From contig NC_092052.1 of assembly GCF_003086295.3 (NCBI RefSeq), positions 75,385,559 through 75,449,558 on the forward strand: DNA of 64,000 nt, given 5' to 3'. Positions 26,281 to 64,000 of this stretch are shown one piece after another (position 1 is the first letter of the stretch; every line of letters begins with the position of its first letter). The translations under genes were made by a program, and so were the position numbers. A model generated the notes under the pieces. That model was not told the origin of the DNA and searched no databases. It saw nothing but the letters and a program-made list of their open reading frames with translations. Origin of the DNA: Arachis hypogaea (taxonomy: Eukaryota; Streptophyta; Magnoliopsida; Fabales; Fabaceae).

Positions 26281-26304
26281 GCACAGTGAAGTCCAGCTAA
26301 AGAC

Positions 26305-27946: not shown

Positions 27947-27982
27947 TAAAAGCTAAAGCTTTTTGTTTTTCCATAACCATTT

Positions 27983-36482: not shown

Positions 36483-36571
36483 AAAAGACAAAATAAAATC
36501 AAAAGCTAATAAGAAATAATGAAAACAAACTCCTAAAACTAGCAACAACTAACAAACAAGCAAAAGGTAAA
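36483..36571 (-). other. Leader upstream of the Tyr/Pro-rich ORF
   Basis: T-rich on the minus strand (TTGTTAGTTGTTGCTAG and similar), ending against LTR P; the last five bases, GTAAA on the plus strand, are the likely left target duplication of P/L. Confidence 0.55.
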
Positions 36572-42559: not shown

Positions 42560-42564
42560 CTTAT

Positions 42565-43957
42565 CCTGTGATTATAAGCTCTGTCTTAGAACCACATGAA
42601 GAAAAAGCACTAATCCAAGTGCTAAAGATACACAAGACAGCTCTTGGGTGGACAATAAGTGACCTAAAGGGCATTATCCTAACCCGATGCATGCACAAGA
42701 TTCTGCTGGAAGATGACGCTAAACCAGTGGTACAACCACAAAGGCGACTTAATCCAGCCATGAAGGAAGTACTGCAAAAGGAAGTCACCAAATTATGGGA
42801 GGCTGGGATTATTTATCCCATATCTGATAGTCCCTGGGTGAGCCCTGTCCAAGTTGTTCCAAGAAGGGAGGCATGACAGAGGTTCATAATGAAAAGAATG
42901 AACTAATTCCTACAAGGACAGTTACAGGGTGGTGTATGTGCATTGACTATAGAAGGCTCAATAATGCCACCAGAAAGGATCATTTTCCTTTACCATTTAT
43001 AGACCAAATATTGGAGAGACTAGCAGGTCATGCATTCTACTGCTTTTTGAATGGCTATTCAGGCTATAATCAAATTGCAGTGGATCCTCAGGACCAAGAA
43101 AAGACAGCATTTACATGCCCATATGGCGTGTTTGCTTATAGGCAGATGCCATTTGGCCTGTGCAATGCACCTGCCACCTTTCAAAGGTGTATGCTCTCTA
43201 TTTTCTCTGATATGGTGGAGAAGTTTCTTGAAGTTTTCATGGACGACTTCTCCATCTTTGAAGACTCATTTGACTCCGGCCTTGACCATCTGGCCCTAGT
43301 TTTCAAATGATGCCAAGAGGCAAACCTGGTTTTAAACTGGGAAAAATGCCACTTTATGGTGACTGAAGGGATTGTTCTTAGGCATCAAATTTTGAAAAAG
43401 GGAATTGAGGTGGATCAAGTTAAGGTGGAGGTAAATGAGTGATTACCACCACCCATTAATGTCAAAGGAATCAGAAGATTCCTGGGACATGCAGGATTCT
43501 ACAGGAGATTTATAAAGGATTTTTCTAAAATTGCAAAACCCCTATGCAACTTACTAGTTACCGACACTCCATTTGGCTTTGACCAAGAGTGTCTATAGGC
43601 CTTTGACACTCTGAGAGCTAAGCTTTTCACTGCGCCTGTCATCTCTGCACCCAATTGAGACATACCATTCGAACTTATGTGTGACTCCAGTGACCATGCC
43701 ATTGGCGCAGTTCTAGAGCAGAGGCATGACAAGCTTCTTCGTGTCATTTATTATGCCAGTCGTATTCTAAATGATGCACAGAAGAACTAGACTACCACAA
43801 AAAAGCAATTACTTATAGTGGTTTATGCCATTGACAAGTTCAGATCCTATCTAATAGGATCTAAGGTAATTATTTACACTGACCATGCTGCTCTTAAATA
43901 TCTACTCACCAAGTAGGTTCTAAACCCAGGATGATATATGATGGGTATTACTCCTGC
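42565..43957 (+). pseudogene. RT and start of RNase H of element P
   Basis: It continues the frame after the solo LTR: EEKALIQVLKIHKTALGWTI, KILLEDDAKPVVQPQRRLNP, WVSPVQVVP (frameshift about 42865), YRRLNNATRKDHFPLPFIDQ, GYSGYNQIAVDPQDQEKTAF, RQMPFGLCNAPATFQRCM and catalytic FMDDFSIFE. A CGA-to-TGA stop follows at 43308-43310. The RNase H part carries [27 protein letters not shown] and a stop, and breaks off at CTGCAAGAG where F is inserted. Several other stops. Confidence 0.9.
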
Positions 43958-43962
43958 AAGAG
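43958..43962. other. Target site duplication of element F, left copy
   Basis: AAGAG. The partner is CTCTT at 54287-54291 next to LTR K, i.e. AAGAG on the opposite strand. Confidence 0.85.
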
Positions 43963-45681
43963 TGATGAGTGGATAATTTATACGCTTTTTGGCATTGTTT
44001 TTTTGTATGTTTTTAGTAGGATCTAGTTACTTTTAGGGATGTTTTTATTAGTTTTTATGTTAAATTCACATTTCTGGACTTTACTATGAGTTTGTGTATT
44101 TTTTTATGATTTCAGGTATTTTCTGGTTGAAATTGAGGGACTTGAGCAAAAATCAGATTTAGAGGTTGAAGAAGGACTGCTGATGCTGTTGGATTCTGAC
44201 CTCCCTGCACTCAAAGTGGATTTTCTGGAGCTACAGAACTCAAAATGGCGTGCTTCCAACTGCGTTGGAAAGTAGACCTACAGGGATTTCCAGCAATATA
44301 TAATAGTCCATACTTTGGCCGAGTTTAGATGACATAAAAGGGCTTTAAACACCAGTTTTACGCTGCAGTCTGGAGTTAAACGCCAGAAACACGTTACGAA
44401 CCAGAGTTGAATGCCAGAAACATGTTGCAACCTGGCGTTCAACTCCAGAAAGAGCCTCTGCACGTGTAACATTCAAGCTCAGCCCAAGCACACACCAAGT
44501 GGGCCCCGGAAGTGGATTTATGCATCAATTACTTACTTCTGTAAACCCTAGTAACTAGTTTAGTATAAATAGGACTTTTTACTATTGTATTAGAGATCTT
44601 TGGATCATCTTGGAACGTCTGGTTCTTAGATAATGGGGGCTGGCCATTCGGCCATGCCTGAACCTTTCACTTATGTATTTTCAAACGGTAGAGTTTCTGC
44701 ACTCCATAGATTAAGGTGTGGAGCTCTGCTGTTCCTCATGAATTAATGCAAAGTACTACTGTTTTTCTATTCAATTCAACTTATTCCGCTTCTAAGATAT
44801 TCATTCGCACTTTAACATGAATGTGATGAACGTGACAATCATCATCATTCCCTATGAATGCGTGCCTGACAACCACTTCCGTTCTACCTTAGATTGAATG
44901 AGTATCTCTTGGATCTCTTAATCAGAATCTTCGTGGTATAAGCTAGATTGATGGCGGCATTCATGAGAGTCCGGAAAGTCTAAACCTTGTCTGTGGTATT
45001 TCGAGTATGACTCTGGGATTGAATGACTGTGACGAACTTCAAACTCGCGAGTGCTGGGCGTAGTGACAGACGCAAAAGGAGGGTGAATCCTATTCCAGTA
45101 TGATCGAGAACCTCAGATGATTAGCCGTGCTGTGACAGAGCATTTGAACCATTTTCACAAGAGGATAGGATGCAGTCATTGACCACGGAGATGCCTCCAG
45201 ATGATTAGCCATGCAGTGACAGCGCATCGGACCATTTTCCAGAGAGGATGAAAAGTAGCCATTGACAATGGTGATGTCCTTACATAAAGCCAGCCATGGA
45301 AAGGAGTAGGACTGATTGGATGAAGACAGCAGGAAAGCAGAAGTTCAGAGGGACGAACGCATCTCCATACACTTATCTGAAATTCTCACCAATGATATAC
45401 ATAAGTATTTCTATCTTTATTTTCTATCTATTTATTATTTATTTTCGAAAACTCCATAATCAATTATTATCCGCCTGACTGAGATTTACAAGATGACCAT
45501 AGCTTGCTTCATACCAACAATCTCCGTGGGATAGACCCTTACTCACGTAAGGTTTTATTACTTGGACGACCCAGTGCACTTGCTGGTTAGTTGTATCGAA
45601 GTTGTTAATGAAAAATGATTTATTAAGACGTGCGTACAGAGTTTTTGGCGCCGTTGCCTGAGATCACAATTTCGTGCACCA
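43963..45681 (+). repeat. 5' LTR of element F
   Basis: TGATGAGTGGATAATTTATA to TTTCGTGCACCA, 1.72 kb. TATAAATAG at 44564-44572. Palindromes of TGGCGTT/AACGCCA type at 44345-44455. A second primer-site-like sequence lies at 45646-45663. A 60-codon chance ORF (45296-45478) is repeated with one change in LTR K, which marks the pair. Confidence 0.92.
45646..45663 (+). other. Primer-site-like sequence inside the F LTR
   Basis: TGGCGCCGTTGCCTGAGA, 16 of 18 bases equal to the true site 42 bp downstream, also preceded by GTTTT. Confidence 0.8.
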
Positions 45682-45687
45682 AGTTTT

Positions 45688-45705
45688 TGGCGCCGTTGCC
45701 GGGGA
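45688..45705 (+). other. Primer binding site, tRNA-Asp type (element F)
   Basis: TGGCGCCGTTGCCGGGGA, exact, six bases after the LTR end. Confidence 0.94.
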
Positions 45706-47201
45706 TTGTTTGAGTTTGGACAACTGACGGTTCATCTTGTTGCTCAGATTAGGTAATTTTCTTTTTGTTTTATTTTCAAAAATATTTTCAAAAAAAATAT
45801 TTTGTGTTTCTTGTTTGAGTCTTGAGTCGATTTCAAGTTTGGTGTCAATTGCATTTTTTTCTAAAAATTCTTGCATAAAATTTTCGAAAAATTCATGCAT
45901 TCATAGTGTTCTTCATGATCTTCAAGTTGTTATTGGTAAGTCTTCTTGTTTGATGTTGATGTTTTCTTGTTTTGCATCTTTGCTTGTTTTTCATGTGCAT
46001 TTTTGCATTCATAGTGTCTGAACATGAAAGATTTCTAAGTTTGGTGTCTTGCATGTTTTCTTTGCATCAAAAAATTTTTCAAAAATATGTTCTTAATGTT
46101 CATCATGATCTTCAAAGTGTTCATGGTGTTCATCTTGACATTCATAGCATTCTTGCAAGCATTCATTGTTTTGATCTAAAAATTTTCATGCATTGCATCA
46201 TTTTCATGTTTTTCTCTCTCATCATAAAAAATTTCAAAAAAATCAAAAAAATATCTTTCCCTTTTCCTCTCATAAAATTCGAAAATTTGAGTTGACTTTT
46301 TCAAAAATTTTTAAAATCTAGTTGTTTTCTATGAGTCAAATCAAATTTTCAAATTTTATCTTTTTCAAAATCTTTTTCAAAAATCATATCTTTTTCACTT
46401 TTCTTATTTATTTTCGAAAATTTTTAAAATATTTTTCAAAAATCTTTTTCTTATCTTTACCACATAATTTTCGAAAATAACATCATCAATTAATGTTTTG
46501 ATTCAAAAATTTCAAGTTTGTTATATACTTGTTAAGAAAGATTCAAACTTTAAGTTCTAGAATCATATCTTGTGATTTCTTGTGAATCAAGTCATTAATT
46601 GTGATTTTAAAAAAATCAAATCTTTTTCAAAACTAATTTCAATCATATCTTTTCAAAAATATCTTTTCATCTTATCTTTTTCAAAATCATATCTTTTTCA
46701 AAAATTTGATTTTAAAATATCTTTTCTAACTTCTTATCTTCTTATCTTTTCAAAATTGATTTTCAAATTTGTTTCAACTAACTAACTAACTTTTTGTTTG
46801 TTTCTTATCTTTTTCAAAACTACCTAACTAACCATCTCTCTCTAATTTTCGAAAATATCTCCTTTTTTTCAAAAATTCTTTTTAATTAACTAATTATTTT
46901 TATTTTTTGATTTTAATTTTATTCCTAATTTTCGAAAATTACTAACCTTTTTCAAAAACTAATTTCGAAAATCACTAACCATTTTTCAAAAATAATTTTC
47001 GAAAATTCTCTTTCTCTCTCATCTCCTTCTATTTATTTATTCATCTACTAACACTTCTCTTCATCTCACATCTCTGCTCTCCTCACCCTTGTGTTTCTTT
47101 CTTTATATTACATTCTTTTCTTCTTCCACTCACCTAAGAGAACCTCTATACCTGCGCAAAAAGGATCCCTATTATTATTTTTCTGTTCCCTCTTTTTTCA
47201 T
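45706..47201 (+). other. Long untranslated leader of element F
   Basis: 1.5 kb of T-rich sequence with ATCTTTTTCAAA and TTTTCGAAAAT units. Two AAGTTTGGTGTC motifs (about 45836 and 46038). No supported ORF; the small ORFs are low complexity. Confidence 0.75.
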
Positions 47202-49533
47202 ATGAGCAGGAGCAAGGACAAGAATATTCTTGTTGAAGCAGATCCAGAACCTGAAAGGACCCTGAAGAGGAAACTAAGAGAAGCTAAATTACAACAATCC
47301 AATAAGCACCTTTCAGAAATTTTTGAACAGGAAGAGGAGATGGCAGCCGAAAATAATAATAATGCAAGGAGAATGCTTGGTGACTTCACTGCACCTAATT
47401 CCAATTTACATGGAAGAAGCATCTCAATTCCTGCCATTGGAGCAAACAATTTTGAGCTAAAACCTCAATTAGTTTCTCTAATGCAGCAAAACTGCAAGTT
47501 TAATGGACTTCCATATGAAGATCCTTTTTCATTTCTTAACTAAATTCTTGCAGATCTGTGATACTGTTAAGACTAATGGAGTAGATTCTGAAGTCTACAA
47601 GCTCATGCTTTTCCCTTTTGCTGTGAGAGACATAGCTAGAATATGGTTGGACTCTCAACCTAAGGATAGCCTGAACTCTTGGGATAAGCTGGTCAAGGCT
47701 TTCTTAGCCAAGTTCTTTCCTCCTCAACAGCTGAGTAAGCTTAGAGTGGATGTTCAAACCTTCAGACAGAAAGAAGGTGAATCCCTCTATGAAGCTTGGG
47801 AGAGATACAAGGTACTGACCAAAAAGTGTCCTTCTGACATGCTTTCAGAATGGACCATCCTGGATATATTCTATGATGGTCTGTCTGAACTAGCTAAGAT
47901 GTCATTGGATACTTCTGCAGGTGGATCCATTCACCTAAAGAAAATGCCTGCAGAAGCTCAAGAACTCATTGACATGGTTGCTAATAACCAGTTTATGTAC
48001 ACTTCTGAGAGGAATCCTGTGAGTAATGGGACGGCTCAGAAGAAGGGAGTTCTTGAAATTGATACTCTGAATGCCATATTGGCTCAGAATAAAATATTGA
48101 CTCAGCAAGTCAATATGATTTCTCAGAGTCTGAATGGAATGCAAGCTGCATCCAACAGTACTCAAGAGGCAGTTTCTGAAGAAGAAGCTTATGATCCTGA
48201 GAACCCTGCAATAGCAGAGGTGAATTACATGGGTGAACCATATGGAAACACCTATAACCCCTCATGGAGAAATCATCCAAATCTCTCATAGAAGGATCAA
48301 AAGCCTCAACAAGGCTTTAATAATGGTGGAGGAAATAGGTTTAACAATAGTAAACCTTTTCCATCATCCATTCAGCAACAGACGGAGAACTCTGAACAAA
48401 ATACCTCTAATTTAGCAAACTTAGTCTCTGATCTATCTAAGGCCACTGTGAGTTTTATGAATGAAACAAGGTCCTCCATTAGAAATTTGGAAGCACAAGT
48501 GGGCCAGCTGAGTAAAAGGATCACTGAAATCCCTCCTAGTACTCTCCCAAGCAATACAGAAGAAAATCTAAAAGGAGAGTGCAAGGCCATTGAATTGATC
48601 ACCATGGCCGAACCTGTAAGGGAGGGAGAGGACGTGAATCCCAGTGAGGAAGACCTCCTGAGACGTCTAGTGATCAATAAGGAGTTTCCCTCTGAGGAAC
48701 CAAAGGAATCTGAGACTCAACTAGAGACCATAGAGATTCCATTAAACCTCCTTATGCCATTCATGAGCTCTGATGAGTATTCCTCTTCTGAAGAGAATGA
48801 GGATGTTACTAAGGAGCAAGTTACCAAGTACCTTGGTGCAATCATGAAGCTGAATGCCAAATTATTTGGTATTGAAACTTGGGAAGATGAACCTCCCTTA
48901 TTCACCAATGAACTAAGTGATCTGGATCAACTGACATTGCCTCAGAAGAAACAGGATCCTGGTAAGTTCTTAATACCTTGTACCATAGGCACCATGATCT
49001 TTGAAAAGGCTCTGTGTGACCTTGGTTCAGGGATAAACCTCATGCCCCTCTCTGTAATAGAGAAACTGGGAATTTTTGGGGTGCAAGCTGCTAAAATCTC
49101 ATTAGAGATGGCAGACAGTTCAAGAAAACAAGCTTATGGACAAGTAGAGGACGTGTTAGTAAAGGTTGAAGGCCTTTACATCCCTGCTGATTTCATAGTC
49201 CTAGATACTGGAAAGGATGAGGATGAATCCATCATCCTTGGAAGACCCTTCCTAGCCACAGCAAAAGCTGTGATTGATGTTGACAGAGGCGAATTATTCC
49301 TTCAATTGAATGAGGACTCCCTTGTGTTTAAAACTCAATGTCATCCTTCTGTAAACATGGAAAAGAGGCACAGTAAGCTTCTCTCAAAACAGAGTCAACC
49401 AGAGCCCCCACAGTCAAACTCTAAGTATGGTGTTGGGAGGCCACAACCAAACTCTAAGTTTGGTGTTGAACTCCCATATCCAAACTCTAAGTTTGGTGTT
49501 GGGGAGTCTCAACAATGCTCTGAACATCTGTGA
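47202..49533 (+). pseudogene. gag - protease of element F, nearly intact
   Basis: It starts MSRSKDKNILVEADPEPERT at 47202 (same start as Z). The gag core has LMLFPFAVRDIARIWL, KLVKAFLAKFFPPQQL, YEAWERYKVLTKKCPSDM and DMVANNQFMYTSERNP. It has a Gln/Asn-rich tail and an acidic linker (YSSSEENEDVTKEQ). The protease has ALCDLGSGINLMPLS (DLGS in the active-site position), VEDVLVKVEG and ESIILGRPFLATAKAVIDVD. The C-terminus has three SKFGV repeats and ends CSEHL. Only a frameshift near 47540 and a Trp-to-TAG change (48289-48291) break it. The particle and processing functions may be supplied by related elements. Confidence 0.92.
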
Positions 49534-49566
49534 GGCTCCATGAGAGCCCACTGTCAAGCTATTGAC

Positions 49567-49602
49567 ATTAAAGAAGCGCTTGTTAGGAGGCAACCCAATT
49601 TT
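49567..49602 (+). other. Conserved post-ORF stem-loop motif (element F)
   Basis: TTAAAGAAGCGCTTGTTAGG then AGGCAACCCAATT; 35 bp after the gag-protease stop. Confidence 0.75.
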
Positions 49603-49739
49603 TATTTATCTAATTTTATTTTTATTGTTATTTCATGTTTTATTAGGTTCATGATCATGTGGAGTCATAAAATAAATATAAAAATTGAAAACGGAATCAA
49701 AAACAGTAGAAGAAAAATCACACCCTAGAGGAGGATCTC

Positions 49740-49986
49740 ACTGGCGTTTAAACGCCAGTAAGGAGCATCTGTCAGGCGTTCAACGCCAGAACAGAGCATG
49801 TTTCTGGCGTTCAACGCCAGAAACAAGCAGCATCCTGGCGTTCAGATGCCAGAAATGCACAGTGAAGAAGAGCTGGTGCTAAACGCCAGAAACAAGCATC
49901 TGGATGGTGTTCAACGCCAGAAATATGCTGCATCTGAGCGTTAAACGCCCAGAACAAGCATCAATTCGGCGTTTAAACGCCAGAAT
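49740..49986. repeat. TGGCGTTTAACGCCA palindrome array (F)
   Basis: Eight inverted motifs spaced about 30 bp. Confidence 0.9.
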
Positions 49987-50018
49987 TGCATGCAAAGGCA
50001 TTTTACATGCCTAATGGG

Positions 50019-50104
50019 TGCAGGGATGCAAATCCTTGATACCTCAGGATCTGTGGACCCCACAGGATCAACTCAGCATCTGTGGACCCCACAGGATCCC
50101 CACC
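50019..50104 (+). promoter_or_regulatory. Conserved GC-rich block upstream of ORF3 (F), tandemly doubled
   Basis: ATCTGTGGACCCCACAGGAT occurs twice (50050 and 50079 starts), where A and E have it once. The core CTGTGG-ACC-CCACAG is itself a small palindrome. Confidence 0.55.
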
Positions 50105-50342
50105 TACCACCACTCACTCTCTTCCCTCTTCTCAATGTTCATCCTCTCTTCCCAATAAACACTCTTCCCCAAAACTCTTCACCAATCACCTCAATCTCTC
50201 TTCCCTATCACCACTTCACCACTCACATCATCCACTCTTCCCCATAAACCTACCTCATAAACTCCACCTACCTTCAAAATTCAAAATCAATTTCCCACCC
50301 AAACCCACCCATATGGCCGAACCTTAACCCCCCTCCCTTCCC

Positions 50343-50350
50343 TATATAAA
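50343..50350 (+). promoter_or_regulatory. Putative TATA box of an internal ORF3 promoter (F)
   Basis: TATATAAA in CCCTATATAAAGCC, 199 bp before the ORF3 ATG at 50542, followed by a CT-rich leader. Confidence 0.62.
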
Positions 50351-50468
50351 GCCCTCCATTCTTCTTCATTTTCACACAAAACAACCCTCTCTTCCCCTTC
50401 TTGGCCGAAACACATCTCTCTCTCCCTCTCCTCCATTTCTTCTTCTTCATCATCTATTCTTTCTTCTC

Positions 50469-50505
50469 TTGCTCGAGGGCGAGCAATATTCTAAGTTTGG
50501 TGTGG
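50469..50505 (+). other. Internal hairpin plus polypurine-like motif before ORF3 (F)
   Basis: TTGCTCG-AGGG-CGAGCAA then TATTCTAAGTTTGGTGTGG. Confidence 0.82.
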
Positions 50506-50541
50506 TAAAAGCATAAGCTTTTTGTTTTTCCATTACCATTG

Positions 50542-51690
50542 ATGGCACCCAAGACCGGAGAATCCTCTAGAAAAGGGAAAGGGAAGACAAAAGCTTCCAC
50601 CTCCGAGTCATGGGAGATGGAAAGATTCATCTCCAAAGCTCATCAAGACCACTTCTATGATGTTGTGGCCAAGAAGAAGGTGATCCCCGAGGTCCCTTTC
50701 AAGCTCAAGAGAAATGAGTATCCGGAGATCCGACATGAAATCCAAAGAAGAGGTTGGGAAGTTCTAACAAACCCCATCCAACAAGTCGGCATCCTAATGG
50801 TTCAAGAGTTCTATGCCAATGCATGGATCACAAGGAACCATGATCAAAGTAAGAACCCGAACCCAAAGAATTATCTCACCATGGTTCGGGGGAATTACTT
50901 AGATTTTAGTCCGGAAAATGTAAGGTTGGCGTTCAACTTGCCAATGATGGAAGAGAACGCACGCCCCTACACAAGGAGAGTCAACTTTGATCAAAGGTTG
51001 GACTAAGTCCTCATGGACATATGTGTGGAAGGAGCTCAATGGAAGATTGACTCAAAAGGCAAACCGGTTCAACTGAGAAGACTGGACCTTAAGCCTGTAG
51101 CTAGAGGATGGTTGGAGTTCATTCAACGCTCAATCATTCCTACTAGCAACCGGTCTGAAGTTACTATAGACCGGGCCATCATGATCCATAGCATCATCAT
51201 TGGAGAAGAGGTGGAGGTTTATGAGATTATACCTCAAGAACTCTACAAGGTGGCTGACAAGTCCTCCACTATGGCAAGGTTAGCTTTTCCCTACCTCATT
51301 TGCCATCTATGCAACTCAGCTGGGATTGACATAGAAGGAGACATTCCCATTGAGGAAGAGAAGCCCATCACTAAGAAAAAGATGGAGCAAACAAGAGAGC
51401 CCATTCATGGAGCTCAAGAGACGCATGAAGCTCATCACCATGAGATCCCAGAGATGCCTCAAATGCATTTTCCTCCACAAAACTATTGGGAGCAAATCAA
51501 CACCTCCCTAGGAGAATTAAGTTCCAACATGCGACAATTAAGGGTGGAACATCAAGAGCACTCCATCATCCTTCATGAAATTAGAGAAGATCAAAAAGCA
51601 ATGAGGGAGGAGCAACAAAGACAAGGAAGAGACATAGAAGAGCTCAAGGACATCATTGGTTCCTCAAGAAGGAAATGCCACCATCACTAA
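50542..51690 (+). pseudogene. ORF3 of element F (putative plant transposon-protein type), one stop
   Basis: 382 codons. The basic N-terminus MAPKTGESSRKGKGKTKAST is followed by SWEMERFISKAHQDHFYDVV, YPEIRHEIQRRGWEVLTNPI, VQEFYANAWITRNHDQ, TMVRGNYLDFSPENVRLAFN, WLEFIQRSIIPTSNRSEVTI, ELYKVADKSSTMARLAFPYL and CHLCNSAGIDIEGD, then a charged coiled-coil third (INTSLGELSSNMRQLRVEHQ, EEQQRQGRDIEELKD). One CAA-to-TAA change at 51004-51006 is the only break. No signal peptide or membrane segment, so it does not look like an envelope protein despite its env-like position. Function unknown. The start at 50542 (MAPK) is preferred over the Met three bases earlier because A and L start there. Confidence 0.9.
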
Positions 51691-52798
51691 GGTGGACTCA
51701 TTCCTTGTTCTTACATTCTCTGTTTTTCGTTTTCCCTATGTTAAGTGCTTATCCATGTTTTTGTCTTATTACATGATCATTAGTCTTTAGTAACTTTGTC
51801 TTAAAGTTATGAATGTCCTATGAATCCATCACCTCTCTTAAATGAAAACTGTTTTAATTCAAAAGAACAAGAAGTACATGAGTTTCGAATTTATCCTTGA
51901 ACTTAGTTTAATTATATTGATGTGGTGACAATGCTTCTTGTTTTATGAATGAATGCTTGAACAGTGCATATGTCTTTTGAAGTTGTTGTTTAAGAATGTT
52001 AAATATGTTGGCGCTTGAAAGAATGATGACAAGGAGACATGTTATTTGATAATCTAAAAAATCATAAAAATGATTCTTGAAGCAAGAAAAAGCAGCAAAG
52101 AACAAAGCTTGCAGAAAAAAAAATAGCGAAAAAAATAGAAAAAAAAAAAAAGAGAAAAAGCAAGCAGAAAAAGCCAAAGCTCTTAAAACCAAAAGGCAAG
52201 AGCAAAAAGCCAATAGCCCTTAAAACCAAAAGGAAAGGGTAATAAAAAGGATCCCAAGGCTTTGAGCATCAGTGGATAGGAGGGCCTAAAGGAATAAAAT
52301 CCCGGCCTAGGCGGCTAAACCAAGCTGTCCCTAACCATGTGCTTGTGGCGTGAAGGTGTCAAGTAAAAACTTGAGACTGAGCAGTTAAAGTCAAGGTCCA
52401 AAGCAAAAGAAGAGTGTGCTTAAGAACCCTGGACACCTCTAATTGGATACTTTAGCAAAGCTGAGTCACAATCTGAAAAGGTTCACCCAGTTATGTGTCT
52501 GTGGCATTTATGTATCATGTGGTAATACTGGAAAATAAAGTGCTTAGGGCCACGGCCAAGACTCATAAAGTAGCTGTGTTCAAGAATCAACATACTGAAC
52601 TAGGAGAATCAATAACACTATCTGAACTCTGAGTTCCTATAGATGCCAATCATTCTGAACCTCAATGGATAAAGTGAGATGCCAAAACTATTCAAGAGGC
52701 AAAAGACTACAAGTTCCGCTCATCTTATTGGAGCTATGTTTCATTGATAGTTTGGAATTTATAGTATATTCTCTTCTTTTTATCCTATTTGATTTTCA
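51691..52798 (+). other. Long conserved 3' noncoding region of element F
   Basis: 1.1 kb, no gene. Contains an A/G-rich run (52115-52165) and the same blocks as E (TGTCCCTAACCATGTGCTTG, GTCAAGGTCCAAAGC, GTGTGCTTAAGAACCCTGGA). Confidence 0.75.
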
Positions 52799-52836
52799 GT
52801 TGCTTGGGGACAAGCAACAATTTAAGTTTGGTGTTG
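52799..52836 (+). other. Hairpin and polypurine-tract position of element F
   Basis: GTTGCTTG-GGGA-CAAGCAAC then AATTTAAGTTTGGTGTTG. Confidence 0.85.
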
Positions 52837-52852
52837 TGATGAGCGGATAATT
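52837..52852 (+). repeat. First 16 bp of the F 3' LTR, cut off
   Basis: TGATGAGCGGATAATT, then unrelated sequence that is the flipped 3' leader of H. Confidence 0.88.
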
Positions 52853-54291
52853 GAAATATACTTAATGAAAATAGAAATAACTTTAATTATGGTTAGGTTG
52901 ACTCTCAACAAGTGCTTCTTTAACGTCACTAGCTTGACGGTACTGCGCTCAAGTCAGCAACAGGGAAGGTTTTTCTTGCTCAACTTCACCACCTAAGTAA
53001 TGTTTCACTCTGTGGCCATTAACAGTAAATCTTTTGTCAGAGTAATTACTCTGGAGTTCTATATGACCATAGGGTGATACATTAGTGATCAGGAAAGGTC
53101 CTGTCCAATGTGACTTAAGCTTTCTAGGGAAGAACTTCAGTCTAGAATTGAAGAAAAAAACTTTCTGTCCAGGTTCAAAGACTCTGGAAGAAATCTTTCT
53201 GTCATGCCACTTCTTGGCCCTTTCTTTATAAATATTTGCATTTTCAAATGCAGCAAGTTGGAATTCATCCACTGGCAGGTGGTACGCCTTCCTATACACC
53301 AATTGGTAAGGAGACGTTCCGATAGGGGTCTTGAAAGCTGTTCTGTATGCCGATAGAGCAGCATCAAGCTTTTTTGCCCAATCCTTTCTAGAGGTATTCA
53401 CCGTTCTTTCTAGGATTCTCTTTAGTTCTCTGTTTGAGACTTCAGCTTACCCATTTGTCTGTGGGTGATATGGGGTGGCCACTTTGTGGTGAACTCTATA
53501 TCGGTTCAGCACAGAGTCAAGCTATTTGTTGCAGAAATGAGTTCCTCCATCACTGATCAGTATCTGAGGGACACCAAACCTACTGAAGATGTTCTTCTAA
53601 AGGAACTTCATCACTACTCTAGTGTCATTCATGGGTGATGCGACTGCTTCAACCCATTTAGACACATAATCCACTGCCACAAGGATATAGGTGTTTGAGT
53701 ATGAAGGTGCAAAAGGACACATAAAGTCTATACCCCATACATCAAACAACACAATCTCTAGGATTCCTTGCTGAGGCATGTGGTGACCATGAGGGAGATT
53801 GCCATCCCTTTGGCAACTGTCATAGCGACGGACAAACTCTCGAGAATCCTTAAAGAGCGTGGGTCAGTAGAAACCACTTTGGAGGACTTTAGTGGCTGTT
53901 CGCTCTCCTCCAAAGTGTCCTCCATAATCGGAGCCATGGCAGTGCCATAGGATTTAATGTGTCTTTTCTTCAGACACACAACGGCGGATTATTCCATCCA
54001 AACATCTCTTAAAGAGATATGGTTCATCCCACAAGTAGTATCTAGCATCATGAATGAGTTTTCGGGCTTGCTGCCTACTGTATTCCTTGGGGATGAATCT
54101 TATTGCCTTGTAATTCACAATATCTGCAAACCAAGGTGTCGTCTGGATAGCAAAGAGTTACTCATCCGGAAAGGTTTCAAACACTTCAGTAGAGGGAGGA
54201 GATGTCCCTTCTACTGGTTCAATCCGAGACAAGTGCTCGGCCACTTGATTTTCTGACCCTTTTCTGTCTCTGATTTCTATATCAAACTCTT
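52853..54291 (-). pseudogene. Integrase and RNase H end of element H (second half of P)
   Basis: Minus strand in order: [20 protein letters not shown] (RNase H end), integrase zinc module near 53980-53760, [20 protein letters not shown] and DYVSKWVEA, a TAA in place of CAA after QTNG (53447-53449), [18 protein letters not shown], a deletion of the ELEHKAYW region, then FEPGQKVFFFNSRLKFFPRK, SHWTGPFLITNVS and VNGHRVKHYLGGE. It starts with AAGAG at the LTR K border, exactly where P stops. The stem-loop motif is at 52894-52926, with GTTGA/TCAAC pairing. Confidence 0.87.
52894..52926 (-). other. Conserved post-pol stem-loop motif (element H)
   Basis: Minus strand AAGAAGCACTTGTTGAGAGT then CAACCT; the shifted stem GTTGA/TCAAC is kept despite sequence change. 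Confidence 0.65.
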
Positions 54292-55950
54292 TGGTGCACG
54301 AAATTGTGATCTCAGGCAACGGTGCCAAAAACCCTGTACGCACGTCTTAATAAATCATTTTTCATTCACAACTTCGATACAACTAACCAGCAAGTGCACT
54401 GGGTCGTCCAAGTAATAAAACCTTACATGAGTAAGGGTCGATCCCACGGAGATTGTTGGTATGAAGCAAGCTATGGTCATCTTGTAAATCTCAGTCAGGC
54501 GGATAATAATTGATTATGGAGTTTTCGAAAATAAATAATAAATAGACAGAAAATAAAGATAGAAATACTTATGTATATCATTGGTGAGAATTTCAGATAA
54601 GTGTATGGAGATGCGTTCGTCCCTCTGAACTTCTGCTTTCCTGCTGTCTTCATCCAATCAGTCCTACTCCTTTCCATGGCTGGCTTTATGTAAGGACATC
54701 ACCATTGTCAATGGCTACTTTTCATCCTCTCTGGAAAATGGTCCGATGCGCTGTCACTGCATGGCTAATCATTTGGAGGCATCACCGTGGTCAATAGCTG
54801 CATCCTATCCTCTTGTGAAAATGGTCCAAATGCTCTGTCACAGCACGGCTAATCATCTGAGGTTCTTGATCATACTGGAATAGGATTCACCCTCCTTTTG
54901 CGTCTGTCAATATGCCCAGCACTCGCGAGTTTGAAGTTCGTCACAGTCATTCAATCCCAGAGTCCTACTCAGAATACCACAGACAAGGTTTAGACTCTCC
55001 GGACTCTCATGAATGCCGCCATCAATCTAGCTTATACCACGAAGATTCTGATTAAGAGATCCAAGAGATACTCATTCAATCTAAGGTAGAACGGAAGTGG
55101 TTGTTAGGCACGCGTTCATAGGGAATGATGATGATTGTCACGTTCATCACATTCATGTTGAAGTGCGAATGAATATCTTAGAAGCGGAATAAGTTGAATT
55201 GAATAGAAAAACAGTAGTACTTTGCATTAATTCATGAGGAACAGCAGAGCTCCACACCTTAATCTATGGAGTGTAGAAACTCTACCGTTTGAAAATACAT
55301 AAGTGAAAGGTTCAGGCATGGCCGAATGGCCAGCCTCCATGATCTAAGAACCAGACGTCCGAAGATGATCCAAAGATCTCTAATACAATAGTAAAAAGTC
55401 CTATTTATACTAAACTAGCTACTAGGGTTTACAGAAGTAAGTAATTGATGCATAAATCCACTTCTGGGGCCTACTTGGTGTGTGCTTGGGCTGAGCTTGA
55501 ATGTTACACGTGAAGAGGCTCTTTTTGGAGTTGAACGCCAGGTTGCAACGTTTTCTGGCATTCAACTCTGGTTCGTAACGTGTTTCTGGCGTTTAACTCC
55601 AGACTGCAGCGTAGAATTGGCGTTCAACGCCCTTTTACATCGTCTAAACTCGGCCAAAGTATGGACTATTATATATTGCTGGAAAGCCCTGGATGTCTAC
55701 TTTCCAACGCAATTGGAAGCGCGCCATTTTGAGTTCTTTAGCTCCATAAAATCCACTTTGAATGCTGGGAGGTCAGAATCCAACAGCATCAGCAGTCCTT
55801 CTTCAACCTCTGAATCTGATTTTTGCTCAAGTCTCTCATTTTCAGCCAGAAAATACCTGAAATCACAGAAAAACACACAAACTCATAGTAAAGTCCAGAA
55901 ATGTGAATTTAACATAAAAACTAATAAAAACATCCCTAATTGTAACTAGA
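54292..55950 (-). repeat. LTR K: flipped body of the F 3' LTR
   Basis: The minus strand ends TTTCGTGCACCA at 54292, followed by AAGAG. Its other end stops at TCTAGTTACAATTAGG, which corresponds to base ~59 of the F LTR. With the 16 bp at 52837-52852 only about 42 bp are missing. It shares with F's 5' LTR the inner primer-like site (54310-54327), TATA box (55401-55409, reverse) and a 60-codon chance ORF with one change. Confidence 0.88.
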
Positions 55951-56463
55951 TATCATTAAGGTTCCAGTTTTCCACATCCAATAACCAAGTAGAATATGAA
56001 GCCTTGCTTGCTGGCTTGAAACTGACTAAAGAAGTTAGGGCAGAAAGGTTGATAGTGCTTAGCGACTCCCAAGTAGTAACTTCCCAAATCAACGACACTT
56101 ATCAAGCTAAAGATCCCAACATGAAATAGGTACCTAGAAGAAGCACGAGAACAATTAGCACAGTTCTCGAAAAGAGAGGTCCAACACATAGGTCAGGAAT
56201 CCAACGCCCGAGCAGATGCCCTCTCCAAGTTAGCTAGCATCAAGCCAGGGGGAAATAATAGAAGTTTCATTCAGAAAACTCTCCACGTAGCATCAGTGTT
56301 AAAAAGAGATGACAGCTTGGACATAAAGGACTCATCAAATCAAAAGTTAGGATGGATGACTCCCGTAGTCAACTATCTTAAATTTGATATCATCCCGAAA
56401 GATGAAAAAGAGGCACGAAGACTCATAAGGGAAACACAAAATTATACCTTGATTTACAATGTT
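55951..56463 (+). pseudogene. RNase H fragment I of a Tat/Ogre-type Ty3/gypsy element
   Basis: It begins SLRFQFSTSNNQVEYEALLA and continues LTKEVRAERLIVLSDSQVVT, YQAKDPNMK-stop-YLEEAREQLA, QESNARADALSKLASIKPGG, NNRSFIQKTLH and MTPVVNYLKFDIIPKDEKEA. This is the second, plant-type RNase H found in Tat/Ogre elements, with the VLSDSQ and ARADALSK Asp residues. It starts mid-domain: the preceding part (VDGSSNKAG...GTQI) is on the other strand at 62761. It is cut at 56463 by the LTR of B. Confidence 0.85.
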
Positions 56464-57974
56464 TGATGAGCCATTATTTTATGACTTATTTTGGATCAAA
56501 TCGAGTGGATTTTATCAAATTTACTCACACTTATCCATGCAAATTGCATGTTTTTGAGATTCCTTCCTAATTTTGTGCTATGATTAAAAATATTGCTTCC
56601 TAGGCCTTAAAATTGCTTATTTTTAATTCTCTTTTATTACTATTCGATGTCGTGATGTGTTTGTTAAGTGATTCCAGGGTTTATAGGATAGGAATGGCAT
56701 GGAGGATGAAGAGGAAGCATGCAAAAGTGGAAGGAACACAAGAATTTAAAGATTTGAGAAGCTGGAACCGGCGCGTGCGCATGGCTGAAGCGTACACGTG
56801 ATCATGCCATCTTACAAGCGATGCGTACGCGTGACTGAAGCGTGCGCATGACTAGGAGCAGTGTCCACCTGACGCGTACGCGTGGCTGACGTGTACACGT
56901 GGCGAGTGTCACGTGCCTCAGTAAAGGGAATACGCTGTGGCAATTTCTGGGCTACTTTTGACCCTGTTTTAGGCCCGAAAATGAAGACAAGAGGCTGGGG
57001 AATGGAGCTGGAAAAATGATTCAATCATTCATTCACACACTTTAGGTTTTAGATGTAGAATTCTAGAGAGAGAGGCTCTCTCCTCTCTCTAGGTTTTAGG
57101 GTTTCTTCTTTATTTTCAATTTCATCTAGGTGTAGTTTCTATTTCATATTTTTTATTCAAGTTCCTCTTTTAATTTCTTATTATTACCTCTTTGCTTTCT
57201 TAGTTTTATATGTTGTTTTCTTTTCCTTGTTGCTTTATTGTTCTTGACTCCTTATTGATTTCAAATTTCTTTTAATGCATTTTGTGGTATTTTATGGTTA
57301 TTGTCGCTTTCTTTAATTTGTGTTATTGTTTTCTTACAATTGTTAGACTTAAATTTTACTATTTCTCATTAATTTTTTATGTTTTTATTTTCTGCCTTCC
57401 AAGTGTTTGATAAAATGCTTGGTTGGATTTTAAAATAGATTTTTGTGTTCTTGGCTTGGATTGAGTGATTTGGAGACTTTTGAATTGTCAAAGTTTCTTG
57501 TTGATTGGTGATTGAAAGTTGCTAGTTGGCTTGAGCTTCACTAAATCTAGTCTTTGACTAGGACTTATGAACTTAGTTGATTTTGCTCACTTGACTTTCC
57601 TTCGATTTTTAGGGGTTAACTAAGTGAAAGAAAAAGGCAATTACCATCACAATTGACGATGATAATGACAATAAGAATTCTAATTCTCAACCCTTGCTAG
57701 GACTTTTCTTAGTTGTTTGTTTACTTTCTTGTATTTACATTTCTTGTCCTATATTTCAAAACCCCAAAAATATTACCTCATAATCAATAATAAATACACT
57801 CCCCTGTAATTCCTTTGAGAGATGACCCGAGGTTTAAATACTTCGGTTATGTTTATTGGGTTTGCTTAAGTGACAAACAATTTAAACGTTGACTGAGGAT
57901 TATTTGTCAGTTTAAAACTATACTTGCAACGCGATTTTATTGAGAAATTCTTAACCGATATTTATCCTCCGTCA
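56464..57974 (+). repeat. 5' LTR of element B
   Basis: TGATGAGCCATTATTTTATG to CCTCCGTCA, 1.51 kb, followed by a primer-site-like sequence. It contains ACGCGTACGCGT-type palindromes (56768-56905). The first 400 bp match the LTR piece at 12118-12524. Confidence 0.82.
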
Positions 57975-57980
57975 AGTTTT

Positions 57981-57998
57981 TGGTGCCATTTCTGGGGA
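57981..57998 (+). other. Degenerate primer binding site, tRNA-Asp type (element B)
   Basis: TGGTGCCATTTCTGGGGA, four mismatches to the standard site. About 54 bp of B leader follow before LTR L. Confidence 0.7.
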
Positions 57999-58052
57999 AT
58001 TACAAATGTGTGCCTTATTATTGGTTATTGTATATATTATGAATATGTTTGC

Positions 58053-59566
58053 TGGTGCACGAAATTGGCTCTGCACGTTTCGGACAGATAGACCAGCAAG
58101 TAAACCGGGTCGTCCAAGTAATACCTCAGGTGAGTGAGGGTTGATCCCACGGAGATTGTTGGTTTGAGCAAGCAGTGGTTATCTTGCAGATCTTAGTCAG
58201 GCGAATAGAAAATATAGTTGTCACGAGAAAACGCATAAAACGGATAAATAAATAAAACGTTACTAGATAGGTGTAAAATCAATGGTATGAGAACGGTTGA
58301 GGCTTCGGAGATGCTTCTTCCTTCTGGATCAACTTTCTCACCATCTACTCCAACTTCTGTTTGATTCTTTTCATGGCAGGCTGTATATGATTAACACCGG
58401 GTCAGTAATCATTAATCTTCTCTGCTTCAGATCAAACACCGGGTCAGCGGTCATTCAATCTGAATGGGATGAAGCTCTAGCAGTCCATTCCCTTGGTGAT
58501 CCTACTCAAAGTGCCACAGACAAGGTCGGATATTCCAGATCAGAGAACACTGCTTCTTGGATTTTAGCCTATACCACAAAGGCCCTAATCGCCCCGCACC
58601 TCGGCTGAATTGATGTCTCGAGAAGTCCCCAACAAAGCTGTGGATTAGCCGTCTAAGAGATGTATTATCAAGCTTGTGTTCAGTACTATCCCATCAAGGA
58701 ATTGTAAGAACCCATGTGAATAGGGATGATGGTCAAGTTACACTTCGAATTTGTTAGGATGAAGAACAAAGATACATCTTAGAATAGAATCAAGCATAGA
58801 TTAAAGTAGAATAGTGATATTATTAATTCATAAGAATCAGCAGAGCTCCTAAGCTTAACCTTAGGAGGTTAGTGACTCATACTATACAAAGAAATAGTGT
58901 AAGGTTTGAATGGTCAAAGATCTCTAACAAGGGTAATCTTTTTTCGATATATACTAGTCTGCTAACTAAGAATTACAGAAAATAAGATAAGCTAGTCTTG
59001 TAGTGCGAAAATTCACTTTCCGGGCCCACTTGGTGAGTGTTTGGACTGAGCTTGAGTGAAGCCACGAGCTAATGCTCCCTTTTGGGCATCCAACGCCAAC
59101 TTTAGACTCTTGAATGGGCATTGGACACCAGCTACTCCCTTCTGGGTGTTGGACGCCAGGAATGGGGCTGGTGGCTGGCATTGAACGCCAGATTTGGGCC
59201 TTTATTTCCAATGCAAAGTATGGCCTATTATATATTTCTAGAAAGCCCTAGATGTTAGCTTTCTATAGCCGTTGAGAGCGTGCCAATTGGACTTCTGTAG
59301 CTCCATAAATGCTCCTTCGAGTGCACAAAGATTAGATCCTGACAACATCTGCAGTCCTTTCTCTGTCTCTGAAACAGACTTTGCAAAACTCCTCAAATTC
59401 AGCCAAAAAATACCTGAAATCATCATAAAACACAATAACTCAAAGTAGATTCAAAAAATATGAATTTTTCACTAAAACCTATGAAAATATAATAAAACTT
59501 TAAACAAAACATAATGAAAACTATATGAAAATGATGCCAAAAAGTGTATAAAATATCCGCTCATTA
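58053..59566 (-). repeat. 3' LTR of element L
   Basis: Minus strand from TAATGAGCGGATATTTTATA to AATTTCGTGCACCA, 1.51 kb. The flank TTTGC (58048-58052) on the B side pairs with TTTAC next to LTR P (one change). TATA-like tract near 58945-58958. Palindromes at 59085-59195. Confidence 0.88.
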
Positions 59567-59604
59567 GAACACCAAACTTAAACTATTGCTTGTCCCCAAG
59601 CAAC
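59567..59604 (-). other. Hairpin and polypurine-tract position of element L
   Basis: Minus strand GTTGCTTG-GGGA-CAAGCAAT then AGTTTAAGTTTGGTGTTC against the LTR. Confidence 0.83.
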
Positions 59605-60722
59605 AAAAAAAAAATAAAGTAGGATTAAAAAGAAGAGAAGGATGCAATAAGTCTCAGAGTTCTCAATGAAGCTCAGTTTGAATTAGATGAGCGGGACTAG
59701 TAGCTTTTTGCTTCTGAATAGTTTTGGCATCCCACTTTCCTTTTAAGTTTAGAATAATTGGCATCTTTAGGGACTCAGAATCCAGATGATATTGTTGAAT
59801 CTCCTAGTTCAGTTCTTTTTTATTCTTGAACACAGCTTCTTTTGAGTCTTGGCTGTGACTCTAAGCACTTTGTTTCCCACTATTACCACCGGATACATAA
59901 ACGCCCCAGACACTTAACTGGGTGAACCCTTTAGGATTGTGATTCAGCTTTGCTAGAATCCCTAGCCAGTGGTGACCAGAGTTCTTAAGCACACTCTTAT
60001 GCTTTGGATCACGACTTTAACTGCTCAGTCTCAGACTTTTCACTTGACACCTTCACACCACAAGCATATAGTTAGGGAAGTAGCTCAATTGAACTGGTTA
60101 GGCCAAGATTTTTCTTCTTTTAGGCCCTCCTAACCATTGATGCTCAAAGCCTTGGATCCTTGCTCTTGCCTTTTGGTTTAAAGAGCTATTGGCTTTTTCT
60201 GTTTCTTTCTTTTTTTTTACTTGCTCTCTTTTTTTTCTTTTTTTCGCTACTTTTCTTTTTCTTTTCTTTCTTTTTCTTGATTTTTCTTGCTTCAAGAATC
60301 AATTTTTGGATTTTTCAGATCATCAATAATACTTCACTTTATCATCATTCTTTCAAGGGCCAACATTATTAACTCCAACATCAAACATGCACTGTTTATT
60401 CATGCATTCAGAAAATAAAAGCAATGCCACCACATCAAATAATTGAACTATTCTTAATATATAACTCGAAATCTATGCACCTTTACTGCTTCTAAAAAAA
60501 TCAAAATTTTATTCAAGTTCAATGGGATGATAAGAGGAACATTTTATAGCTAATTGGAAAAAGAAATATAAATTTGAATCCTAATAATACTCATGCAATT
60601 CTGAAATTTAAAAGACAGAAACTTAAATAAAAGCTTAAATGCTACTAGTGATCATGAAAATATAAACATAAGAAATAGGAATTAGAATAGGCACAGGAGT
60701 AGGGAGGTGGAACTCAACCACT
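59605..60722 (-). other. 3' noncoding region of element L
   Basis: 1.1 kb without a gene; homologous blocks to G and, more weakly, to A/E/F. T/C-rich tract at 60195-60290 on the plus strand. Confidence 0.7.
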
Positions 60723-61826
60723 TTAATCATGGGAGGCGTTAAGCTCTTCAGGGGATAATTTCTGACGCTTCAGTTCTTCTAGCTCATGCCGCTGCTTCTC
60801 TTGTTCCTTGACCAGTTTGCAAAGCATGCCAGTCTGGTCTTTTTGCTCCTATCTTAATTGATCCAAGGTGGTTTGCAATTGTGCAACAACTGCTTCCAGA
60901 TGGGTCCAATATTCAATTGGAGGGATCTCTTGCATCTGAAGAGACTCAGGTGTCTTCCTTTTGGGATGATCATCTGGTATTTTGGAGCTTTCCATCACTT
61001 GCTTGGTGATTGGGCTTTCTGTTGGGATAAAGGAGTCTCTATTAATCATGACTCCAGCCTCTTTATACAAGCAAAAGATAAGGTTTGGATAGGCCAATCT
61101 AGCTTGAGTTGACATCCTGTTTGCAACCTTGTACAGCTCAAAGGGAATCAGTTGGTGGACTTCCACCTCATTCTCTATCATGATGCAGTGAATCATCACA
61201 ACCCTTCTGATGGTAACTTCAGAGCGGTTGCTAGTGGGGAGTATGGAACGCCCACTAAAATCCAACCAACCCCTAGCAACTAGTTTGAGATCTATTCTTC
61301 TCAGTTGGTTTGGATTTTCTTTTGTGTTATTGATCCACTGAGTTCCAGGCAGACACATGTCTTCCAGAATTTGATCCAACTTTGGATCAGCTACCACCCT
61401 CCTACTAAAGAATTATGGATCATCCCTTTGTGGAGGTAACTTAAAGATCTCTCTCACCTTGTCAAGATTGAATTGGAAAGTCTTCTCTCAAACCATGGTG
61501 CGAAAAGTATGGAATCCTTGTCCATCTTTCTTTTACTTATCTGTCATCTATAGATTAGCATAGAATTCATGGATCATTGTTATTCCAACATTGATTTCAG
61601 GGTCGGCCAGGATCTCCCAGCCTCTCTTTCGAATTTGCTCTTGGATCTCCGAGTACTCATCTTCTTTTAATTCGAATCTGACTTTTGGGATCATTGTCCT
61701 CTTGCACATTATTTTGTAATAATTTTCTTCACGCTGCTTTGTGTAGAATCTGAGAGGTTTAAAGACAACTGTTTGGTTGTCTTCTTTCTTGTTTCTTGAA
61801 GTGGATTTTCTACTTTTTGGAGCCAT
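60723..61826 (-). pseudogene. ORF3 of element L, broken
   Basis: It starts MAPKSRKSTSRNKKEDNQTV, then VFKPLRFYTKQREENYYKIM, PKVRFELKEDEYSEIQEQIR and KRGWEILADPEINVGITMIH. A frameshifted stretch (61400-61550) covers the MVRG-type segment. It resumes with LDQILEDMCLPGTQW, LDFSGRSILPTSNRSEVTIR, MIHCIMIENEVEVHQLIPFE and PITKQVMESSKIPDDHPKRK. A stop near 60847 precedes a coiled-coil tail ending SHD. Same subtype as G. Confidence 0.83.
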
Positions 61827-61860
61827 AGAATTCGAATGGAGTGGGAAGGAAAGGCTCTTT

Positions 61861-61899
61861 CCACACCAAACTTAAAAAGTTTGCTCGTCCTTGAGCAAA
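61861..61899 (-). other. Internal hairpin plus polypurine-like motif before ORF3 (L)
   Basis: Minus strand TTTGCTCA-AGGA-CGAGCAAA, then CTTTTTAAGTTTGGTGTGG, 35 bp before the ORF3 ATG. Confidence 0.8.
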
Positions 61900-61970
61900 A
61901 GGTCAGCAAGAAGACGAAGAGGAGGAAAGAATTCGAATGGAATGTGGATGATGGAGTTGGTGGGGCAAAA

Positions 61971-61980
61971 GTTATATATA
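61971..61980 (-). promoter_or_regulatory. Putative TATA box of an internal ORF3 promoter (L)
   Basis: TATATATA(TA) after a C-rich stretch on the minus strand, about 145 bp upstream of ORF3. The GC-rich GGATCTGTGG block of A/E/F is absent in this subfamily. Confidence 0.5.
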
Positions 61981-62298
61981 TAGGGAGGGGGGAGGGTTTT
62001 TCGAAATTAATTAGATAAAAGATAAAGAAGATATGATTCACACTTTAGTAAAACATAGAAAAAGATTTGAAAAGATTTTTAAAGTTGAATAAAAGATTTG
62101 AAAGTAGTTGCAAAAGATATGAAATTTTGAAAAAGATTTGAAAAATAATTGAAAAGGATATGAAAAGATTTTAAATTTGAAAGAAATTTGAAATTAAAAG
62201 ATGATGGTTGCAAGAATCTTGTTTAGATGATATGATTAAAAAGATAAGATTTGGAAAAGATAAGTTTTGAAAAAGTCAAAAACTTTCCTAACCCTTGT
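61981..62298 (-). other. Leader-like T/C-rich repeat region of element L
   Basis: No gene. On the minus strand it holds ATCTTTTCAAATC-like units resembling those in the gag leaders of P and F, here located between the palindrome array and ORF3. Confidence 0.6.
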
Positions 62299-62634
62299 TG
62301 GGCATTGAACGCCTAGAATGCCTTGATTCGGGCGTTCAACACCATCCCGGTGCTCCCTCTGGGCGTTGAACGCCCAGCTAGTGCCTCTTGGCTGGCGTTC
62401 AACGCCAGCCTGCGACTCTTCTCTGGGCGTTGAACGCCCAGCCAGTGCTCCCTGGCTGGCGTTCAATGCCAGCCTTTCTTCCTCCTTTCAGGGCGTTGGA
62501 CGCCCAGCCAATGCTCCCTAGCCGGCGTTCAACGCCAGGTCTGCTGCACCTTGAGGGCGTTCAATGCCCAACCAGTATCCCTTAGCTGTCATCGAACGCC
62601 AGTCTTGCTGCGTCTTGTTGGCGTTCAACGCCCC
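62299..62634. repeat. TGGCGTT/AACGCC palindrome array (L)
   Basis: About eleven inverted motifs, the longest such array in the window; most read GGGCGTTGAACGCCC or TGGCGTTCAACGCCA. Confidence 0.88.
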
Positions 62635-62760
62635 TCTTTCCCTCTTATCTAGCATTTTAACCCCAGCAAGGGCTTTTCCCAGGATGCTCTGTTTTTAGCT
62701 CTGACTGTCTCTACTTCTGTTGTAACTACTGCACATGATCACAAACCTAAGGAAACAATC

Positions 62761-64000
62761 CTATCTGAGTTCCTTGCCCATTTTCTAAGATGGTACCCAC
62801 TCAACTTCCAGCTTTGTTGGATGATCCATCTACAAACAAGCTCCAAGTAGTCAGACTACCTTGGTTTTCAGTGTATTCAGCCACAAAGTCAGTGAGACAT
62901 TGGACTTGATTCCTGTCTGAGCTTTATATCTCAAAATCAAACTCGGCAGTTCCACAACCCATTGTAGTATCCTTCCTGCTATGTCCATTTTTTGTAGGAT
63001 GCGCTTCATGGGTTAATTAGTTCGGACCTTTATAATGTGAGCCTAAAAGTAAGGTTGGAGTATTTGGGAGGTGAGAATAAGAGCATATGTGAACTTTTCT
63101 ACCTTTTGATAGTTTAGCTCTGCTCCTTGTAGCGCTTTGCTTATGAAGTAGATGGTATCCATTTTCATCTTCCTGAACCAGGGCTAAGGCTATAGCTCGG
63201 CTTGCCACTGCCAAATAGAGGATGAGCTCTTCTCCCGCGATAGGTTAGGAGAGTATAGGGGGTTGGCCTAAGAATGCTTTAAAATTTTGAAAGGCTTGCT
63301 CGCATTCCTGGGTCCATTCAAATTGACTCGCTTTTTTTAATATCTAGTACAATGGTAGAGATTTCAATGCTGATCCTGCTAAGAACCTGGATAATGCTGC
63401 CAACCTTTCATTTAGTTGTTGGACTTTTTTGAGACAAGTCGGGCTCTTCATCTCTAATATGGTTGTGTATTTGTTCGGGTTGGCCTTTATGCCTCTTTGG
63501 GTGATAATGAAACCAAAGAACTTTAGGCCTCTACTGCAAAGGTGCATTTTGAAGGGTTTAATCTGATTCCATGCTTCCTTATTGTGTAGAATACCTCAGA
63601 GAGGTTGGATAAAAGGGTGATGTCGTCCTTGGTTTTGACGAGCATGTCGTCTACATATACTTCCATGAGTTTTCCTAGGTGGAAGGAAAACACTCTATTC
63701 ACCAGTCATTGGTATATGGCTCTAGCATTTTTTAATCCAAAAGGCATCTCTACGTAACATTAATTAGCCTTGGGAGTGATGAAAAAGTCTTTTCTTGGTC
63801 TGGTTTGAACATCGGGATTTGATCTTATCCTGAGTATGCATCCATGAAGGACAAATACCGATATCCTGAGGTCGAATCTACCAAGGCATCAATGCTTGGA
63901 AGAAGATATAGATCCTTAGGAGAAGCCTTGTTAAGGTTGGTGAAATCAACACACATCCTCCATTTTCCATTCTACTTTTTTACCAAAACTATGTTAACTA
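62761..64000 (-). pseudogene. RT and RNase H start of a Tat/Ogre-type element (J)
   Basis: From the window edge on the minus strand: RT with CVDFTNLNKASPKD, MPFGLKNAR and the catalytic VYVDDMLVKTKDD (near 63646-63660); then GFIITQRGIKANPNKYTTIL and LNERLAALSRFLAGSA (63547-63344); connection; then TTWSLFVDGSSNKAGS and GTILENGQGTQI, the start of the plant-type RNase H. Several stops. It ends in mid-domain at 62761; fragment I at 55951 carries the next residues on the opposite strand. Confidence 0.87.

Follow-up and report, generated by a model that had tools for sequence, protein, structure and literature searches.

We analysed a stretch of 64,000 bases of the peanut (Arachis hypogaea) genome (the window; C17:75385559-75449558, contig NC_092052.1), which consists mostly of remains of nested long terminal repeat (LTR) retrotransposons, and found that two adjacent segments in it are reversed in place. 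The window is divided here into segments A (left flank to 52852), B (52853-55950), C (55951-62760) and D (from 62761 on), of which the reversed ones are:

52853..55950, minus strand: segment B, 3098 bp, reversed
55951..62760, minus strand: segment C, 6810 bp, reversed

Among the eight placements of B and C between A and D, the one in which both are reversed and their order is kept is alone in restoring three end pairings, between pieces of a retrotransposon F, of its host element G and of an older RNase H-bearing element. This is the order put forward in the first-pass annotation of this DNA (F + rev(52853-55950) + rev(55951-62760) + J, where J is the RNase H fragment at the left end of D), and target duplications, an interrupted host open reading frame (ORF) and a further element, N, agree with it. 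Judged from the sequence, the flips are very likely a real rearrangement rather than an artefact, and they probably arose in a single three-break chromosome event that was repaired by end joining. The assembly searched comprises 2,557,474,382 bases in 440 contigs; genome-wide match figures refer to the scored places, 40 per query with the window itself included, and seven relatives were fetched for each test of adjacency.

The join between A and B divides F, whose parts, together with the piece of G that lies between them in the present order, are:

43963..45682, plus strand: F 5' LTR, with AAGAG directly before it
45683..52836, plus strand: F interior, with ORFs at 47503-48291, 48448-49533, 50539-51006 and 51013-51690, similar to 27374-30237
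52837..52852, plus strand: start of the F 3' LTR (first 16 bp), at the right end of A
52853..54290, minus strand: H, integrase part of G and the leader following it (Pfam rve, E 4.7e-15; Integrase_H2C2, E 6.6e-9)
54291..55950, minus strand: K, F 3' LTR from base 59-60 to its end, 96.45% identical to 44021-45682

The F 3' LTR ends after 16 bp at 52852, and K supplies the rest. Aligned to the F 5' LTR, K starts at LTR base 59-60 and has 96.45% identity over 1662 columns, with 58 substitutions at 1660 sites (3.5%). Between the 16-bp piece and K, 42-43 LTR bases are missing by this alignment (38 by one genome copy that was checked), in line with the loss of about 42 bp noted in the first-pass annotation. 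The 5-bp target duplication of F, AAGAG, is found with 5/5 bases to the left of 43963 and, on the minus strand, after the end of K at 54290, and the host reading frame interrupted by F continues beyond K, as seen in translation and in comparison with an intact ORF. When placed on the pol-bearing element M (14333-25356, minus strand), the sequences before F and after K share 6 bases at 19214-19219 where they meet, which fits an insertion with a 5-bp duplication. F is thus an ordinary insertion into G, with B reversed relative to A. The pairing of K with F is proven by the target duplication and the reading frame; LTR identity alone would not suffice.

Antisense to a gag-like ORF of F, positions 47737-47844 (minus strand) match snoR71, an Rfam model of a plant C/D small nucleolar RNA (snoRNA), over the full model length with 47.2 bits (gathering threshold 40). 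Either a snoRNA-like stretch was captured here, or the family model fits retrotransposon sequence.

The remaining parts of G are distributed over A and C, and another repeat lies inside the element at about 40640-42350:

36572..38041, plus strand: G 5' LTR, in A; 87.5% to its partner 59566->58053 by blastn (1517 columns)
38387..43962, plus strand: G gag to reverse transcriptase/RNase H part, aligned to 14333-25356 and translated; broken by F at 43963
58053..59566, minus strand: G 3' LTR, in C
59567..62760, minus strand: L, comprising leader, repeat array, ORF 61397->60849 and the pre-LTR part of G

H and L, which stand at the outer ends of B and C, had been proposed to form one leader once flipped, and this is what the relatives show: in all seven (L002-L008), L comes after H on one strand, with a gap of 19 bp in three copies and of 23 bp in four, although in three of the seven the H alignment spans only the last ~89 bp. 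From these gaps we derive a loss of 19-23 bp at the H/L break. The L-side match lies 14-19 bp beyond the H-side match at no fewer than 15 of the 39 other places listed, the rest being absent from one list. A near-zero loss, suggested by the window's own F and M, was replaced by this value from closer genome relatives, F and M being more distant from the H/L leader than the fetched copies are. The two G LTRs differ by 9.2% substitutions without gaps.

At 49729-49990, 27308-27502, 62331-62610 and 21622-21829 there are tandem arrays whose units, ~31-32 and 62-64 bp long, are built around a short palindrome-like sequence, GGCGTTNAACGCC. The arrays are found in several elements, each time after a leader or in gag.

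The third pairing concerns the RNase H fragments at the inner end of C and the left end of D:

55951..56461, plus strand: I, 3' part of an RNase H region, broken by N at about 56465
62761..64000, minus strand: J, left end of D, with remnants of a reverse transcriptase and the 5' part of an RNase H region

I matches Pfam RVT_3 (profile positions 35-122 of 123, E 1.3e-15) and the longer tail of J matches RT_RNaseH_2 (E 2.7e-8), while the short end of J alone gives no Pfam match. On the top protein match of J, an Arachis duranensis protein (P0001), J stops at residue 233 and I starts at residue 236, with two residues between them and identities of 49% and 60%, respectively. J precedes I on one strand with 3 bp between them in 7/7 fetched relatives (L030-L036), a spacing that was printed in the alignment output for two and taken from coordinates for five. 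J and I are parts of one RNase H region, meeting within about 3 bp as first noticed.

Element N, into which G is inserted, provides an independent test of the orientation of C, with parts of it in C and in A:

56465..58052, plus strand: N 5' LTR and start of the leader, in C; broken by G at 58052/58053
35502..36571, minus strand: N gag flank, in A, directly left of G (translation)
12118..12526, minus strand: start of the probable N 3' LTR, which stops at 12118 after 409 bp

In all seven relatives (L042-L048) the N leader joins the gag flank on one strand, with an overlap of 5 bp in six and of 4 bp in L047; this overlap is the target duplication of G. Because the leader in C and the gag flank in A have opposite orientations in the window and are contiguous in the relatives, C is reversed relative to A. 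The first 409 bp of the N 5' LTR are 90.7% identical to 12526->12118 (divergence 9.3%), which over the first 99 bp leads the 39 other scored copies, with 148 bits against 146 for the runner-up. No second copy of the N insertion into the I/J element was found, the one full-length match among the 40 scored places being the window itself, and hence these places hold no homoeologous copy that shows the unflipped order. Near the probable N 3' LTR, element M (25356->14333, minus strand) has a 3' LTR that is short of about its last 90 bp and at 14333 abuts the apparent N 3' region; position 14333 is a deletion junction, not a flip.

The LTR divergences of 3.5% for F, 9.2% for G and 9.3% for N are consistent with a nesting of F in G in N. 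Of the substitution rates applied, some place the insertion of F at 1.4-2.2 million years ago. With a rate of 1.64e-8, as given in the accessible part of one report (PMC13175896), the Kimura two-parameter (K2P) distance of 0.0359 between the F LTRs corresponds to about 1.1 million years. The flips are younger than this insertion (about 1-2 million years). Restoring the order alters the models of F, G, N and the I/J element; the broader statement in the first-pass annotation, that every element model in the window changes, goes too far: the element at 14333-25356, contained entirely in A, keeps its model.

At the base level, full-length matches across each present join were confined to one of the 40 scored places, namely the window. 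The losses are small and near-balanced, with about 42 (38-43), 19-23 and 3 bp at the three breaks, and both pieces have been retained. At the A/B join the following stretch is common to both sides:

52847..52852: ATAATT at the A/B join, in the F LTR; also the six bases after H in 4/7 relatives

The bases shared there between the F LTR and the sequence following H number six in four of the seven relatives, five in one and one in two. With the A/B join as query, the alignments of other places start at base 10 or 11 in 38 of 39 cases and at base 12 in the remaining one, 6-7 bases past the join. Random joins within the window share at least 6 bases in 0.22% of 200,000 draws and at least 1 base in 45%. 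At the B/C join ~1 bp is shared; LTR-side matches mostly end at 55950/55951, and RNase H-side matches start at 55950 or later, mostly at 55951 or 55953. No base is shared at the C/D join, where C-side matches mostly end at 62758-62759 and leave the odd base 62760, and where no D-side match is among the matches listed. There are no N bases in 164 kb (the window and 50 kb on each side), in which a gap closed without N would be invisible. A 30-base pattern across the A/B join had 0 matches in viral contigs, a result that is uninformative for a plant.

We propose the following history. An old RNase H-bearing element (J+I) would have taken in N, N would have taken in G, and G would have taken in F, each by ordinary LTR-retrotransposon insertion. 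Three later breaks, in the F 3' LTR, in the G leader and in the RNase H region, would then have freed pieces of 3.1 and 6.8 kb, which would have been rejoined by end joining with their order kept, each backwards and with small losses. It is by inference that we place the flips in the plant rather than in the assembly, assign all three breaks to one event and credit end joining with their healing; the simultaneity of the breaks is suggested solely by the shared B/C breakpoint. Among irradiated Arabidopsis lines, as described in the available portion of one study (PMC8581144), microhomology of 2-23 bp was present at one or more junctions of 20/23 inversions, 11 inversions had lost 1-61 bp beside a junction, and two events consisted of two inversions. 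The ~6-bp shared stretch at the A/B join and the small losses match these end-joining traces in plants, as far as that portion covers them. We lean towards regarding the locus as a single natural shattering of ~10 kb of retrotransposon DNA, in which three breaks were healed together with both fragments reversed and the result was kept in a modern genome.

An origin in which B and C were inverted separately, at different times and with a common B/C breakpoint, is unlikely. By the end pairings at least two simple inversions would be needed, and each would be an ordinary one; however, the second break would have had to fall within ~1 base of the first join, which is improbable by chance in ~10 kb, and there is neither a piece of B at the outer end of C (the odd base 62760 aside) nor a piece of C at the outer end of B. 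The first-pass annotation had spoken of two inversions with small deletions sharing one breakpoint; the small losses and the shared breakpoint stand, but a single three-break event is preferred to two inversions because the latter would require breakage twice at one spot, to within a few bases. Flips produced by recombination between inverted repeats or by template switching during replication are very improbable. Many related LTRs do occur in both orientations in the region, but when neighbourhoods of 600 bp at the three breaks are compared with one another, their inverted homology is at the random level. The best scores are 19-21, where random pairs have a median of 22 and reach 31 at the 95th percentile, and recombination was rejected on these scores; template switching would have had to copy each piece exactly once without duplication, which is implausible. 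Hardly credible at all is that no inversion took place, K being a solo LTR with no tie to F, and H, L, I and J coming from different elements that now lie side by side. Truncation is common among the elements here (12118, 14333), and K and the G LTR have slightly better matches elsewhere. The target duplication of F on both sides and the resumed ORF nevertheless rule out K as a solo LTR, and the adjacencies of H with L, of J with I and of the N leader with gag, each in 7/7 relatives, refute the idea in substance.

An assembly error, in which two small contigs were rightly placed but both backwards and the surrounding gaps were closed or dropped, is quite unlikely and on sequence grounds appears less likely than a real event. 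Mis-oriented contigs would give just this pattern of pieces in the right place, reversed, twice running and with few bases missing, and peanut inversions concentrate at contig breaks (PMC11540320, in the part available). Against this, the 164 kb hold no N, whereas the Line8 peanut assembly fills joins with 10,000 N according to the same partial source (PMC11540320). The joins are moreover clean to the base, and the ~6 bp shared at one of them is too short for a read overlap; the losses are small, and the breaks lie within repeats, away from repeat borders. The N-free 164 kb and the ~6-bp shared stretch at the A/B join are what leads us to favour biology over assembly.

Several observations weigh against the proposed three-break event or the pairings on which it is built. 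One other genome copy outscores the F 5' LTR as a match for K, the F 5' LTR ranking second among the other copies (2727 bits against 2738; 40 of 12,926 candidates being scored). The G LTR pair is not exclusive genome-wide either: the G 5' LTR is only fourth among other genome copies for the G 3' LTR, three of them scoring higher. The two target copies of G in the window, GTAAA and GCAAA, agree at just 4/5 bases. The 6-bp match at the A/B join rests on relatives, G's own bases being gone, and shrinks to 1 bp in two of the seven, and the 1 and 0 shared bases at the B/C and C/D joins are like those of any arbitrary join. Finally, when the peanut assemblies of Tifrunner and Line8 are compared, 79/111 inversions (71.2%) have a Tifrunner contig break no more than 2 kb away, which, in so far as the accessible text of that comparison (PMC11540320) tells, indicates that false inversions are common in such assemblies.

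Elsewhere in the window, positions 10342-12117 hold an unrelated repeat that is 88% like a stretch ~11-13 kb to the left of the window (locus L020, 7903-9625). The region 25357-27200 comprises an integrase-bearing stretch, then a protease-like ORF at 26528-27082 and then a second copy of the post-integrase leader, and gives the impression of a mosaic made from two types of element. Rfam and ARAGORN scans of the window yielded nothing relevant to the question of the flips.

If the rearrangement is real, intergenic plant DNA contains local multi-piece flips that escape ordinary synteny comparison, their pieces being small and made up entirely of repeats. Annotation of this DNA that ignored the flip would go wrong: F would seem truncated, K a solo LTR, and G and N would be split into unrelated fragments. 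LTR pairs and target duplications in opposite orientation can serve as a general check, with base resolution, for a real micro-inversion or an error of assembly. Nested insertions and the target duplications that they leave amount to a built-in record of orientation, by which hidden micro-rearrangements can be found and put in temporal order within a single genome, with no outgroup. Should the flips turn out to be an assembly error, the locus would be a small and precise test case for assembly.

The same pattern was not recognised in plant retrotransposons in the open-licence literature, a weak negative that covers titles, abstract openings and a few search terms. F, G and N resemble nested Ty3/gypsy-type LTR retrotransposons of Arachis, of which FIDEL is an example, in their LTRs, 5-bp target duplications and nested insertion. 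Local shattering of the chromoanagenesis type is marked by clustered breaks and by pieces religated in changed orientation with little loss and little homology; the peanut case differs from it in having just three breaks and two pieces, with no copy-number change seen. The radiation-induced inversions of Arabidopsis, in the portion of PMC8581144 available, are alike in being local, in their short shared junction sequences, in losses of 1-61 bp and in including two double inversions, but they were induced and arose within two generations, whereas the peanut flips, if real, are natural and older and are read from the nested transposons of one genome. Mis-oriented peanut contigs, to the extent that the available part of PMC11540320 describes them, share with our segments the right place and the reversed orientation, and the window differs from them in its clean joins and in having no N within 50 kb. 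F, G and N themselves are ordinary broken retrotransposons, and the novelty lies in their later reshuffling: the flip, which is well dated, exemplifies a kind of rearrangement already known and lies in DNA that has no known function.

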